Assembly (NCBI RefSeq): GCF_017743735.1
Contig: NZ_JAGHRO010000004.1
Location: forward strand, 124,001-188,000
Direction: 5' to 3'
Origin: Shimia sp. R9_2
GTDB taxonomy: Bacteria > Pseudomonadota > Alphaproteobacteria > Rhodobacterales > Rhodobacteraceae
Length of the DNA stretch: 64,000 bases
Under the pieces are notes generated by a model. It saw only the letters and a program-made list of their open reading frames with translations, was not told the DNA's origin and did not search any database. A program made the position numbers and the translations under genes. Of the stretch, positions 2-10,593 are shown piece after piece; positions within the stretch are counted from its first letter, which is position 1, and each line of letters starts with the position of its first letter.

Positions 2-1072
2 GGTTTCAATGAAAGAGTTGCGACAATTTTGGCAAGAATATGTACCTACAAAGGTTCTCTGCCCCAAGGAGCCAGTACATCTCCAAGACTCGCCAATATC
101 ATCGCCAAATCTCTGGACAAAAAGATATTGGAGATCGCGAAAAGCCATCAGTTAAAGTACACTCGCTACTCCGACGACATATCTTTATCTTCCTCCAAGA
201 AGGTGATCCCAACCTTGGTTGTGAAAAATTTTCACGATAACCCCGATGGCAGAGACGTCATACTTGGAGACGGTCTCAAAAACGCCGTTCGAAGTTCCGG
301 TTTTTTCATAAACGCGTCTAAAACACGTCTGATGATGCCCAATAACCGCCAGGAAGTAACTGGCTTAGTGGTAAACAAGCGGGTCAATGTCCGTAGAACA
401 GACATCGCAAAGCTTCGAATGAAAATACACTCCGTAAAGAAAGTCGGATTTAGCGAGGCCGCAAAAGTTTGGGTCGACGGTAATGAAGCTCAACTAAAGA
501 ACCACCTCGTCGGGTGGCTCGCGCACATTCGACAAGTTCGCGGCCCCTCTGACCCTGTATTGGCGAAGCTCTGCCTGCAAGCTCACGAGGCAGGATTAAC
601 AGAAATTAAATGGATAGAAGAATTGGCAGATATGAGCAAAGAATTTGACGTCTTTCTTTCTCACGCAAGCGAAGACAAAGAAAGAGTAAGAAGACTCCAA
701 GCCGAGTTGGAAGAACGAAAGGTGTCAGTTTTCTTCGATGAGAGCACAATCAAATGGGGCGATTCTATCGTTGAGAAAGTGAATCATGGATTGCTCAAGT
801 CCACCTTTTTCATCCCGTTTTTGACCGAAACTTTTTCAAAAAAAGGATGGACAAATAGAGAGCTAAACTCTGCTATTCAGATGAACATGACGCGCAAGCG
901 CCGAATTCTTCCAATCAAGTCGCCAGACTTTGATGTTGATAGTAAGTACCCGCTGCTCAACGACACGCTTTATAAAACGTGGCCAAGAGATCCGGCAGAT
1001 GAAGCCGCCTTTATTTCCGAAATTTCGGACGAACTTGTTGCCTTGATCGAAATGGAAAAGTCCAGCGTTTAA
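2..1072 (+). CDS. Retron-type reverse transcriptase fused to a C-terminal TIR domain (5'-truncated by window)
   Basis: The frame is open to the first base of the window, so the true start lies upstream. What remains holds the catalytic half of a bacterial reverse transcriptase: an LPQGASTSP block (about 59-85), the catalytic YSDD (167-178), an NxxKTR segment, and a QEVTG motif with V-T-G at 356-364. VTG is typical of retron RTs. From about 640 a TIR domain begins (FDVFLSHASEDK) and keeps the WTNRE block, whose glutamate (860-862) is the expected NADase residue. By family knowledge, retrons and other defence RTs make RNA-primed cDNA and hold a toxic effector inactive until phage attack; TIR effectors deplete NAD+. 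I infer an abortive-infection system. The DNA is much more AT-rich than the core (23 G/C in the first 60 bases), suggesting transfer. The N-terminal RT domains and any msr-msd RNA are outside the window, so the retron subtype is unresolved. Confidence 0.88.
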   Translation, partial: GFNERVATILARICTYKGSLPQGASTSPRLANIIAKSLDKKILEIAKSHQLKYTRYSDDISLSSSKKVIPTLVVKNFHDNPDGRDVILGDGLKNAVRSSGFFINASKTRLMMPNNRQEVTGLVVNKRVNVRRTDIAKLRMKIHSVKKVGFSEAAKVWVDGNEAQLKNHLVGWLAHIRQVRGPSDPVLAKLCLQAHEAGLTEIKWIEELADMSKEFDVFLSHASEDKERVRRLQAELEERKVSVFFDESTIKWGDSIVEKVNHGLLKSTFFIPFLTETFSKKGWTNRELNSAIQMNMTRKRRILPIKSPDFDVDSKYPLLNDTLYKTWPRDPADEAAFISEISDELVALIEMEKSSV

Positions 1073-1229: not shown

Positions 1230-1272
1230 CCGCGATAACGACGCAATACAGACGCGATACCGACGTGCGATT
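1230..1272. repeat. 11-bp tandem repeat array, copy A
   Basis: Three imperfect 11-base units of consensus acgcgataccg run head to tail from 1230 and finish with acgtgcgatt. The array ends on the stop codon of the ABC-F gene. A second array at 61222-61275 has the same orientation and the same terminal segment; the last 33 bases of the two differ at only three positions. Both are intergenic. Copy A also marks the change from AT-rich RT-TIR DNA to the GC-rich core. Function unknown. Confidence 0.7.
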
Positions 1273-3083
1273 CAGGTGTTGCGTTCGGCCTTTTCCTCAA
1301 GCGTCAGCCACTCTTCCTCGGCCTCCGCAAGCGCCGTTTGACGCTCCACCAGCGCCTCTGTCGCCTTCTGGAATTTCACCGGTTCTTTGGTGAAAAGCTC
1401 CGGATCTGCCATGAATTCTTCCAGCTTCGCGATCTCCGCTTCCAGCCGTTCCATGATCCCTGGCAGCGCCTCAAGGCGGTGCTTTTCGGTAAAGCTCAGC
1501 CCTGCTGCGGGCGCTTTTTCCTGCTTCACCTTCTCCGCTTTAGCTTTTGTTTTCTCAGCCTTTTTCGGCGCATCTTCCTGCCGCTGCGCTCGGTAATCCG
1601 ACCAGCCCCCGGCATAGGTTACAGCCCGGCCATTGCCTTCCATGGCGATGGTTGTGGTGGCCACGCGGTCCAGAAAATCCCGGTCGTGGCTGACCAAAAG
1701 CACGGTGCCGTCATAGTCATCCAGCAGCTCCTGCAGAAGATCCAAGGTCTCCACATCAAGGTCATTTGTCGGCTCGTCCATGACCAGAAGATTGCTCTCT
1801 TTGGCCATCAGTTTTGCGAGTAGCAACCGCGCCTTCTCACCGCCGGAAAGAGACCGCACCGGCGCTCTGGCCTGGCGGTCATCAAACAGAAATTCTTTAA
1901 GGTATCCAACAACATGCTTGGGGTTACCGCGCACCATCACCTGATCCGCCTTTCCCGAAACCCGCATCTCAGGGTCGCCCGTGAGACTGTCCCAGAGGGT
2001 CATTTCAGGGTCCAATTTCGCGCGCGCCTGATCAAACACCGCAGGCAGCAGATTGGTGCCCAAAGTCACCGTCCCGGCATCCGGTTCCAGCTCCCCCATC
2101 AGCATCTTGATCAGCGTGGTTTTGCCCACGCCATTGGGCCCCACAAAGGCCACCCGATCCCCGCGCTGCACCGTCAGAGAGAAGTCCGACACAATGGCTT
2201 TGTCGCCAAATCCTTTGGACAAGCCCTTGGCATCAATCACCTTTTTTCCAGACTTTGGTGCCGCCGACAGCTCCATCGCCGCAGAGCCCTGCCGCGAGAT
2301 CATCGAGGCACGCTCTGCCCGCAGATCCTTCAGCGCCCGCACACGGCCCTGATTGCGTTTACGCCGCGCACTGATGCCTTCCACCGCCCAACGCGCCTCG
2401 GCTTTGATCTTGCGATCCATTTTGTGGCGCTGGATGTCTTCTTCTTCCCAAACCTTGTCGCGCCAAGCCTCAAACGCCTCAAAGCCTTTCTCCTGACGTC
2501 GCACCATTCCCCTGTCAATCCAAAGGGTTGCACGGGTCAGAGCACGCAGAAACGCGCGGTCGTGGCTGATCAGAACATAGCCCGCGCGCGTCGCCTTCAG
2601 CTCCGCCTCAAGCCAGGCAATCGCCTCGATATCAAGGTGGTTTGTCGGCTCGTCCAACAGCATCAACTCCGGGGCCTCAGCCATCAGTCGCGCCAAAGCC
2701 GCCCGCCGCCGCTCCCCGCCAGAGGCAGTTTCGACCGCGCGCGCCGGATCAAACTTGAGACCTTCACCGGCCCGCTCAACCTTGTACATCTCCCCCGGAT
2801 CAAGACTTGCCGAAGCGAAATCCCCAAGCGTCGCAAACCCTTTCATATCAGGGTCTTGCTCCATGTAGCCCACGCTGATGCCTAGCGGCACAACGATCTC
2901 TCCGCGGTCCGCTTCAACCAGCCCGGCCATCACCTTCATCAAGGTGGATTTGCCCGACCCGTTGCGCCCGACCAGTGCCACCCGATCTCCGGGCTGCACC
3001 ACAAGGCTCAGCTGATCAAAAACCGGATCTCCGCCAAAGGTCAGGGAGATATCGCTCATCTGCAAAAGAGGTATACGTGCCAT
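1272..3083 (-). CDS. uup: ABC-F family ATPase, Uup-like
   Basis: A 603-residue soluble protein with two ABC ATPase domains and no membrane segments, so not a transporter. Domain 1 has Walker A GRNGSGKST (about 39-47), signature ASGGE (about 120-124) and Walker B ending LLDEPTNHLD (about 142-151). A charged linker follows (about 205-265). Domain 2 has Walker A GPNGVGKTT (about 315-323), signature LSGGE and MDEPTNDLD. The last 65 residues are a charged coiled coil, which separates Uup-type members from EttA. Family members act on ribosomes, and Uup is linked to DNA-element excision and ribosome assembly. Transcribed alone; the start is the ATG before ARIPLLQM. The family call is firm, the Uup subtype less so. 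Confidence 0.88.
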   Translation of the reverse strand: MARIPLLQMSDISLTFGGDPVFDQLSLVVQPGDRVALVGRNGSGKSTLMKVMAGLVEADRGEIVVPLGISVGYMEQDPDMKGFATLGDFASASLDPGEMYKVERAGEGLKFDPARAVETASGGERRRAALARLMAEAPELMLLDEPTNHLDIEAIAWLEAELKATRAGYVLISHDRAFLRALTRATLWIDRGMVRRQEKGFEAFEAWRDKVWEEEDIQRHKMDRKIKAEARWAVEGISARRKRNQGRVRALKDLRAERASMISRQGSAAMELSAAPKSGKKVIDAKGLSKGFGDKAIVSDFSLTVQRGDRVAFVGPNGVGKTTLIKMLMGELEPDAGTVTLGTNLLPAVFDQARAKLDPEMTLWDSLTGDPEMRVSGKADQVMVRGNPKHVVGYLKEFLFDDRQARAPVRSLSGGEKARLLLAKLMAKESNLLVMDEPTNDLDVETLDLLQELLDDYDGTVLLVSHDRDFLDRVATTTIAMEGNGRAVTYAGGWSDYRAQRQEDAPKKAEKTKAKAEKVKQEKAPAAGLSFTEKHRLEALPGIMERLEAEIAKLEEFMADPELFTKEPVKFQKATEALVERQTALAEAEEEWLTLEEKAERNT

Positions 3084-9381: not shown

Positions 9382-9458
9382 CGGGCTATGGCGCAGCCTG
9401 GTAGCGCGTCCGTCTGGGGGACGGAAGGTCGCAGGTTCGAGTCCTGCTAGCCCGACCA
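9382..9458 (+). tRNA. tRNA-Pro (anticodon GGG)
   Basis: The 77-base gene folds into a full cloverleaf: acceptor cgggcta/tagcccg, D stem gcgc/gcgc, anticodon stem tccgt/acgga around the loop ctggggg, T stem gcagg/cctgc around ttcgagt, then the encoded acca end. The loop puts GGG at positions 34-36, reading CCC proline codons. Confidence 0.96.
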
Positions 9459-9516
9459 TTCAAAACCGCCCGTGTGCCGCAAGGCCCGGGCGTTTTGTAT
9501 ATCCGGAAGGACCATT

Positions 9517-10593
9517 ATGACCGGCGTATTGCCCAGCCAAACCATTGAAACCATGCTGACAAACGGCGAAATTCGCGTGTCAGAACCGGTTGTTGAAGGC
9601 CAGGTCCAACCTGCATCGCTTGATCTGCGTCTTGGCAATGTTGCCCACCGCGTCCGCGCGTCATTCTTGGCCGGACAGGGCCGCACGGTGGCCGAACGCC
9701 TCAGCGAATTTGAGATGCACCGTATCGACCTCTCAGATGGCGCGGTGTTGGAAAAGGGCTGCGTTTATGTCGTTCCCCTGATGGAAGCACTCAACCTCCC
9801 CGAAGTTGTTCAAGCTGTTGCCAATGCCAAAAGCTCAACCGGCCGACTGGACTTGTTGACCCGCACCATCACGGATGGCGGCACAGAGTTTGACCGCATC
9901 GCTGCCGGTTACAACGGCCCGCTTTATGCAGAGATCTGCCCGCGCAGCTTTTCGGTGCTTGTCCGCCCCGGAATGCGCCTCAACCAGATCCGCTTCCGAG
10001 CTGGACAAAGCCTGCTAAGCGACGTCGATCTGCGTGTCTTGCATGAGCGCAGCCCGCTGGTGGACGGCGAGGCTGTAATTGACGACGGGCTTGGTTTTTC
10101 TGTCGATCTCAAACCCGCAGACGGCACCCTTGTTGGCTATCGTGCCAAGCCGCACACCGGCGTGATTGATCTGGAAAATATTGGGCATTACGACCCGTCC
10201 GAATATTGGGAAGAGCTGCACAGCTCTGACGGAAAGATCATTCTCGATCCCGGCGCGTTCTACATTCTGGTGAGCCGTGAAGCCGTGCATATCCCGCCCG
10301 CTTATGCCGCGGAGATGGCTCCGTTCCTGGCAATGGTGGGTGAATTCCGCGTGCACTACGCGGGCTTCTTTGATCCGGGCTTTGGCCACGCTGAAGCTGG
10401 CGGAACAGGGTCACGGGGCGTGTTGGAAGTACGCTGCCACGAGGCCCCCTTTGTGCTGGAACACGGCCAAGTGGTCGGGCGCTTGGTCTATGAGCGTATG
10501 GCGGACGTGCCAGAACAGCTATATGGCGCTGGCATTGCGTCCAACTATCAGGGTCAAGGCCTGAAACTCAGTAAACATTTTAAGGCAGCGTAA
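9517..10593 (+). CDS. dcd: dCTP deaminase (long alphaproteobacterial form)
   Basis: A 358-residue protein; I chose the ATG at 9517 (MTGVLPSQTIETM) over an in-frame start 15 codons upstream that runs back towards the tRNA. The N-terminal half has dCTP deaminase/dUTPase-like features: QPASLDLRLGNVAHRVRA (about 28-45) and AKSSTGRLDLLTRTI (about 104-118, the substrate loop). The C-terminal half (from about 190) looks like a second copy of the fold, with FYILVSREAVHIPPAYAAEM and HAEAGGTGSRGVLEVRC. Ordinary Dcd is about 190 residues and works as a homotrimer, so this form resembles an internal duplication. It converts dCTP to dUTP on the way to dTMP. Confidence 0.85.
   Translation: MTGVLPSQTIETMLTNGEIRVSEPVVEGQVQPASLDLRLGNVAHRVRASFLAGQGRTVAERLSEFEMHRIDLSDGAVLEKGCVYVVPLMEALNLPEVVQAVANAKSSTGRLDLLTRTITDGGTEFDRIAAGYNGPLYAEICPRSFSVLVRPGMRLNQIRFRAGQSLLSDVDLRVLHERSPLVDGEAVIDDGLGFSVDLKPADGTLVGYRAKPHTGVIDLENIGHYDPSEYWEELHSSDGKIILDPGAFYILVSREAVHIPPAYAAEMAPFLAMVGEFRVHYAGFFDPGFGHAEAGGTGSRGVLEVRCHEAPFVLEHGQVVGRLVYERMADVPEQLYGAGIASNYQGQGLKLSKHFKAA

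Follow-up and report, generated by a model that had tools for sequence, protein, structure and literature searches.

The classification of retrons into types is reportedly due to Mestre et al. 2020. The kind closest to the locus analysed here is the type XII retron RT-TIR ('Retron-TIR', Gao et al. 2020; NCBIfam NF042941; PADLOC family RT-TIR_XII), in which a reverse transcriptase (RT) and a TIR domain form a single chain, and a passage of a commentary on Gao et al. (PMC7699616) lists Retron-TIR among the defence retrons. The nearest solved relative by sequence is the type I-C retron Eco2 (Ec67, RT-Toprim), whose fused effector is a Toprim domain, described as an RNase in passages of PMC12405507. 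According to the same passages, the Eco2 msr is one short stem-loop, the proteins assemble into a self-inhibited trimer in which every msr RNA connects two of them, and release of the effector is ascribed, as a proposal, to a phage nuclease; approximately 32.8% of 3395 retron or retron-like RTs are given there as fused to effector domains, TIR included. No paper on a type XII retron with TIR, or on a retron RT-TIR under those names, was found in the openly licensed literature.

The window, i.e. the whole stretch of 64,000 nucleotides that was analysed (G000:C20:124001-188000), opens inside an RT-TIR gene. Positions in the extended locus (L002) equal the window position + 10000. On the plus strand the frame is open from the first window bases to the stop at 1072 (356 aa). 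Extended upstream, where the N-terminus of the RT was found, the ORF is complete (window -448 to 1072); it starts 449 bases 5' of the window, encodes 506 aa from an ATG and has 0 internal stops, the window edge being the sole truncation of the gene. Initiation at a GTG (L002:9582) instead would yield a 496-aa form, nearer in length to several relatives, and either start is possible. A direct fusion of RT to TIR, as proposed in the first-pass annotation, is borne out by this single intact ORF, in which both RVT_1 and TIR_2 were detected with Pfam (36.3 bits, cut-off 29.6, and 72.7 bits, cut-off 28, on the 356-aa window fragment). The frameshifted remnant considered there as a possibility did not appear, as the frame is unbroken over the 506 aa. 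Feature coordinates are collected in Table 1.

Table 1. Coordinates of the RT-TIR gene, its RNA, its surroundings and comparable elements; plain numbers are window positions, others are locus positions
Feature	Position	Strand	Details
RT-TIR fusion gene, 3' part	2..1072	+	in-window share of ORF L002:9552-11072
RT domain (RVT_1), C-terminal part	2..367	+	whole domain L002:9741-10367; Pfam residues 54-262 of the 496-aa form, 63.9 bits
TIR domain (TIR_2)	650..994	+	Pfam residues 357-471, 71.7 bits; aligned to AbTIR
msr-msd RNA (putative), 121 nt	L002:9458-9578, 5' of the window		a1 arm 9458-9469, msr hairpin 9476-9494, a2 arm 9567-9578
Stretch differing from the closest genus genome	1..1171 in the window (whole stretch L002:9336-11171)		blastn flanks; ptuA/ptuB there instead
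prs (presumed), left flank	L002:8263-9279, outside the window		ORF; DNA match in 25/25 genus genomes; terminator-like hairpin L002:9299-9340
ABC-F type ATPase gene (presumed), right flank	1272..3083	-	ORF; DNA match in 25/25 genus genomes
12-nt inverted arms bounding a 140-142-nt stretch	L018:2607-2747, L020:2615-2754, L021:2613-2754, L022:2610-2749		5' of RT-TIR genes

The full chain matched NF042941 ('TIR domain-containing anti-phage reverse transcriptase') with 652.6 bits against a cut-off of 600, over positions 1-460 of the 464 in the profile. With 461.1 bits the window fragment alone stayed under this cut-off because it is truncated by the window edge. Among 75 PADLOC families the best was RT-TIR_XII (517 bits), which is modelled as a 'single gene'. 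Since the curated NF042941 cut-off is exceeded and the best PADLOC family is RT-TIR_XII, the gene is classed from its sequence as an intact retron RT-TIR of type XII, a known and named kind. Profile searches of the RT and TIR parts thus matched throughout (RVT_1, TIR_2, NF042941, RT-TIR_XII), and these family matches, together with the intact ORF, the predicted fold and an msr-msd upstream, support the earlier reading of a probable retron-type defence gene. That reading had also presented the fused TIR as an unusual arrangement; the fusion is real, but its exceptional status does not stand, given the existing NCBIfam equivalog and PADLOC RT-TIR_XII model. We hold with high confidence that the locus comprises all parts of a type XII retron, RNA included, and that the TIR is its effector. 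It resembles the described members in the single chain over a near-full profile, the upstream msr-msd and the predicted anti-phage role.

The motifs NAxxH, YxDD and VTG mark retron RTs. The hallmarks named in the first-pass annotation, YSDD and VTG, are present at window positions 167-178 and 356-364. In an alignment of 31 sequences, made of the RT-TIR protein and 30 homologues picked from 120 listed, N104, A105 and H108 (NAxxH), Y196, D198 and D199 (YxDD) and V259, T260 and G261 (VTG) were invariant (31/31). The same alignment bears on the proposal that the TIR domain keeps its catalytic glutamate: the candidate residue E427 (WTNRE, codon at 860-862) was invariant in all 31 sequences and aligned, in a TIR alignment of approximately 95 residues, with a Glu of the NAD(+) hydrolase AbTIR (PDB 8g83; motif WTNYEL) that we take to be catalytic. 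AbTIR and bacterial TIR NADases are thus alignable with the TIR part including the candidate catalytic Glu, whereas the aligned AbTIR chain, 184 residues long, has no RT. The AlphaFold model reached a mean pLDDT of 85.3 and a pTM of 0.64; in the block around the Glu (residues 421-430) the mean pLDDT was only 53, and the model is less reliable in its TIR part. The top Foldseek match of the predicted model was retron Eco2 (E 4.1e-30), with a loose superposition (TM 0.57, rmsd 10.3).

An msr-msd RNA, if there was one, had been expected upstream of the window, and a candidate element was found there (Table 1), ending 3 nt before the possible GTG start of RT-TIR. An element of approximately 120-130 nt lies directly 5' of the gene start, or overlaps it, in eight related RT-TIR loci (L002, L003, L005, L012-L016), the proteins of the other seven being 54-71% identical to that of L002; L015 and L016 are nearly identical, and the 8-row alignment amounts to about seven independent sequences. 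RNAalifold predicted 25 pairs on this alignment, 12 of them with compensatory changes. Across the 19 pairs of the a1/a2 stem and msr hairpin, 97.4% of 151 cells were paired in the eight loci, and at most 50.0% when the partners were slid by 1-3 columns. Changes on both sides were seen in 10 of these 19 pairs (matched by 1 of 500 shuffles) and the covariation score was 0.521 (reached by 0 of 500 shuffles), a comparison that overstates the strength of the covariation because the rows are related sequences and two of them (L015, L016) hardly differ.

In L002 itself, 11 of 13 pairs of the a1/a2 stem are formed; the two outermost, standard in most relatives, are non-standard. The 12-nt arms of L002 alone scored 27, with a best of 21 in 10 shuffles. 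The same single-sequence search gave no arm pair above 10 shuffles in L006 and L008, and in L014 the best pair was a different one from a1/a2. Directly behind CTCTA there is no G in three loci, namely L002 and L012 (both C) and L005 (A); further on, five bases past the last A of this motif, an invariant G is a candidate for the priming guanosine. Four loci (L005, L014-L016) have as their first in-frame start codon a TTG overlapping a2, so that folding of the RNA could compete with translation if these putative starts are used; later starts are possible. An Rfam search of L002:6000-12500 gave no match at the gathering score (best Thr_leader, E 0.012, 30.3 bits versus 55, on the prs terminator), and a tRNA scan of L002 returned 0.

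A covariance model (R1) was built from the eight loci and searched against 46 sources, comprising 45 of 91 loci and the window (343,207 bases). Besides the eight training loci, it matched only 5' of three distant RT-TIR genes, which is a more independent test of the RNA than the shuffles; there was no further non-training match at E<=1 in the 343,207 bases. Two matches were in L007 (26.4 and 25.3 bits, E 7.2e-5 and 1.5e-4), ending approximately 30 and 330 nt before the ORF, and weak ones were in L006 (16.9 bits, E 0.034, 8 nt before the ORF) and L008 (16.6 bits, E 0.041, approximately 150 nt before the ORF). Over 120 family genomes with strict filters R1 found its own locus only; under these settings it also missed G032 and G041, whose elements it matches otherwise.

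The two L007 matches belong to tandem msr-msd copies (L007:960-1112 and 1258-1410, G032:C322), a 153-nt repeat that is 86% identical and 298 nt from start to start. Both contain an msd hairpin of 18 perfectly matched bp, in which the differences between the copies are paired (compensatory). One RT-TIR protein may here use two msDNAs. Searches of the openly licensed literature for tandem or duplicate msr-msd gave no papers for most phrasings.

R1 had no match at the RT-TIR loci L017-L022, whose proteins are only approximately 34-37% identical to that of L002 and whose upstream arms have other letters. The branch of L002 differs from these other type XII members also in its named members, which are mostly Alphaproteobacteria among the homologues listed. 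The single-sequence arm search covered four of these loci (L018, L020-L022), and all four have 12-nt arm pairs of their own, with scores of 30.5-32; the highest score among 10 shuffles per locus was 23.0-25.5. The arm letters covary among the four loci, and the stretches bounded by the arms (Table 1) are probably their msr-msd.

The low GC content described in the first-pass annotation holds: the islet L002:9345-11171 has 45.1% GC versus a mean of 58.3% (sd 2.7) over 74 kb, and of 722 sliding windows over the 74 kb only one, located on the retron, was as low or lower. Its left neighbour, named from its protein sequence, is presumably prs, and its right neighbour is a gene that we take from its sequence to encode an ABC-F type ATPase. 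The related strains differ at this place. In G012, the genome with the closest prs (90% identical), blastn flanks extended at 88% on the left to L002 9335 and at 93% on the right from L002 11172; the retron is absent, and the opposite strand of the interval (L148:257-2256, G012:C32:116700-119400) encodes the Septu proteins PtuA (378.8 bits) and PtuB (241.2 bits). Two defence systems thus alternate at one prs/ABC-F junction in these two genomes. Septu consists of an AAA ATPase and an HNH protein and has only the site in common with the retron. Because Septu takes the place of the retron at this junction in the closest relative, the cassette behaves, to judge by these sequences, as a replaceable module, and the exchange beside prs is a clean example of defence-module turnover in the genus.

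A repeat at the border of the islet had been read as a sign of transfer. Such a repeat exists, a 10-bp perfect inverted repeat (1146-1155/1178-1187) in the gap that separates the RT-TIR stop from the convergent ABC-F gene, with short direct repeats besides; repeats do not, however, show transfer here, because no direct repeat of at least 14 nt was found in L002:9270-11300, and it is the swap of defence systems at the same site that speaks for transfer. Of the two arms of the inverted repeat, the left belongs to the DNA that is not shared with G012 and the right to the DNA that is. The repeat may be a terminator, although it lacks a T run behind it.

In seven further genus genomes (L149-L156) the prs-to-ABC-F interval ranges from approximately 1.7 to 31 kb and contains, by eye, transporters and metabolic genes. 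The interval is a variable region and not solely a defence slot. Five ORFs from L149 and L156 gave only weak PADLOC matches in family searches (PD-T4-6, 7.6e-5; CARF3, 1.5e-4) and have ordinary sensor-kinase, LuxR-type and oxidoreductase domains.

The mechanism that we infer for the retron draws on the analogy with Eco2 and on the listing of Retron-TIR among defence retrons. One transcript would carry both the msr-msd RNA and the message for the RT-TIR protein. The RT would bind the folded RNA, prime from a guanosine just 3' of a1, copy the msd part into msDNA and stay on the RNA-DNA hybrid. In this complex, which is probably oligomeric as in the RT-Toprim retron Eco2, the TIR would be held inactive until a phage product frees it by cutting or altering the msDNA. 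The freed TIR would hydrolyse NAD+, and the infected cell would stop before phage are made. From its sequence, the TIR probably destroys NAD+; for the Eco2-like release step alone, which is argued by analogy, our confidence is moderate and leans in its favour.

Alternatively, instead of depleting NAD+ itself, the TIR might work as in Thoeris and produce a messenger of the cyclic ADP-ribose type that acts on a separate effector. Both NAD+ depletion and messenger signalling are known for TIR domains in bacterial defence, and the chain has a weak match to the Thoeris type III protein ThcB4 (NF058526, 33.1 bits). This is far under the cut-off of 220, at which Thoeris was rejected; furthermore, RT-TIR is the sole sizeable ORF of the 1.8-kb cassette, with both flanking genes matched in 25/25 genus genomes, and the PADLOC model for the family holds a single gene, all of which argues against this reading and leaves it improbable.

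We consider it very improbable that the retron is dead or decaying, a relic with an RNA that no longer works, although it is the only RT-TIR copy among the 25 genus genomes (E<=1e-60), has a foreign base composition and lacks the two outermost pairs of the a1/a2 stem. A decaying gene was rejected for want of any internal stop (0 in the unbroken 506-aa ORF), YxDD, NAxxH, VTG and the TIR Glu are all kept, and the inner eleven a1/a2 pairs are intact. That a group II intron RT, or an RT of another class such as DRT, merely carries a TIR has a negligible probability, the matches to group_II_RT_mat (TIGR04416, 41.3 bits) and Drt2 (31.9 bits) being far below the cut-offs of 300 and 390, at which both classes were rejected, while the retron-TIR equivalog passes and the NAxxH and VTG motifs and the msr-msd are present; the group II intron RT that the first-pass annotation had allowed for was thus not encountered.

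The type XII retron, with a TIR that probably destroys NAD+, can further be compared with RT-Toprim retrons: Eco2 is the nearest solved relative of L002 by sequence and fold, and both have a fused effector and one short msr stem-loop, with Toprim in Eco2 and TIR in L002. A hairpin with a GAATC loop was sought 5' of 88 RT loci; this pattern, chosen after it had been noticed in the RT-TIR clade, was present in 17/88 loci, comprising 8/8 of the close RT-TIR clade and 9/80 of the others. In 50 plain letter shuffles of the upstream sequences the mean was 1.4 and the maximum 4 of 88. The nine outside loci were L025, L027, L028, L033-L036, L038 and L081, of which all except L028, L034, L035 and L081 were typed with PADLOC, and RT-Toprim_I-C was the best family in 5/5 of the typed ones. 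Those with an 11-pair stem (L027, L028, L033-L035, L081) have nearly one sequence and are non-independent. No GAATC hairpin as defined was present in 71/88 loci, L006-L008 included, which have GATCC in the corresponding loop. Tentatively, and with the odds against it, RT-TIR and RT-Toprim retrons might be one RNA-gated chassis with swappable effectors, in which a common msr hairpin with a GAAUC loop would assemble the self-inhibited oligomer and the TIR would be set free by the same sort of trigger as the Toprim of Eco2 (loss of msDNA integrity); some RT-TIR systems (L007) would moreover watch two triggers via two different msDNAs. A hairpin common to some RT-Toprim loci and the L002 clade in any case leads to a testable idea on the gating of fused effectors.

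The kind of retron described here is already known and named, and the general picture of retrons is unchanged by this member. What is added is the member itself, its RNA, the exchange site and the shared hairpin; a complete and well-bounded type XII retron with its RNA located is what experiments need. The RNA family is possibly already in print; according to passages of PMC9252829, the PADLOC web server includes msr-msd covariance models of its own.

NF042941 was matched in 8/394 family genomes at E<=1e-90; L009-L011 match with the RT part only (within 2-313 of 464) and were left out of the RT-TIR set. At E<=1e-110 no match beyond the own genome was obtained in class and phylum genomes (1/385 and 1/398), and a search of genome contigs returned 1 relative. 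With tblastn, one record was found among plasmids (limit 1e-60; E. coli, 36.8% identical) and one among phages (limit 1e-40), the latter with the RT part only. Two listed proteins of 310 and 334 aa (P0091 and P0092) are 69 and 66% identical over approximately 60% of the RT-TIR protein and have only an RT domain listed; their effectors may be split off, truncated or separately encoded.
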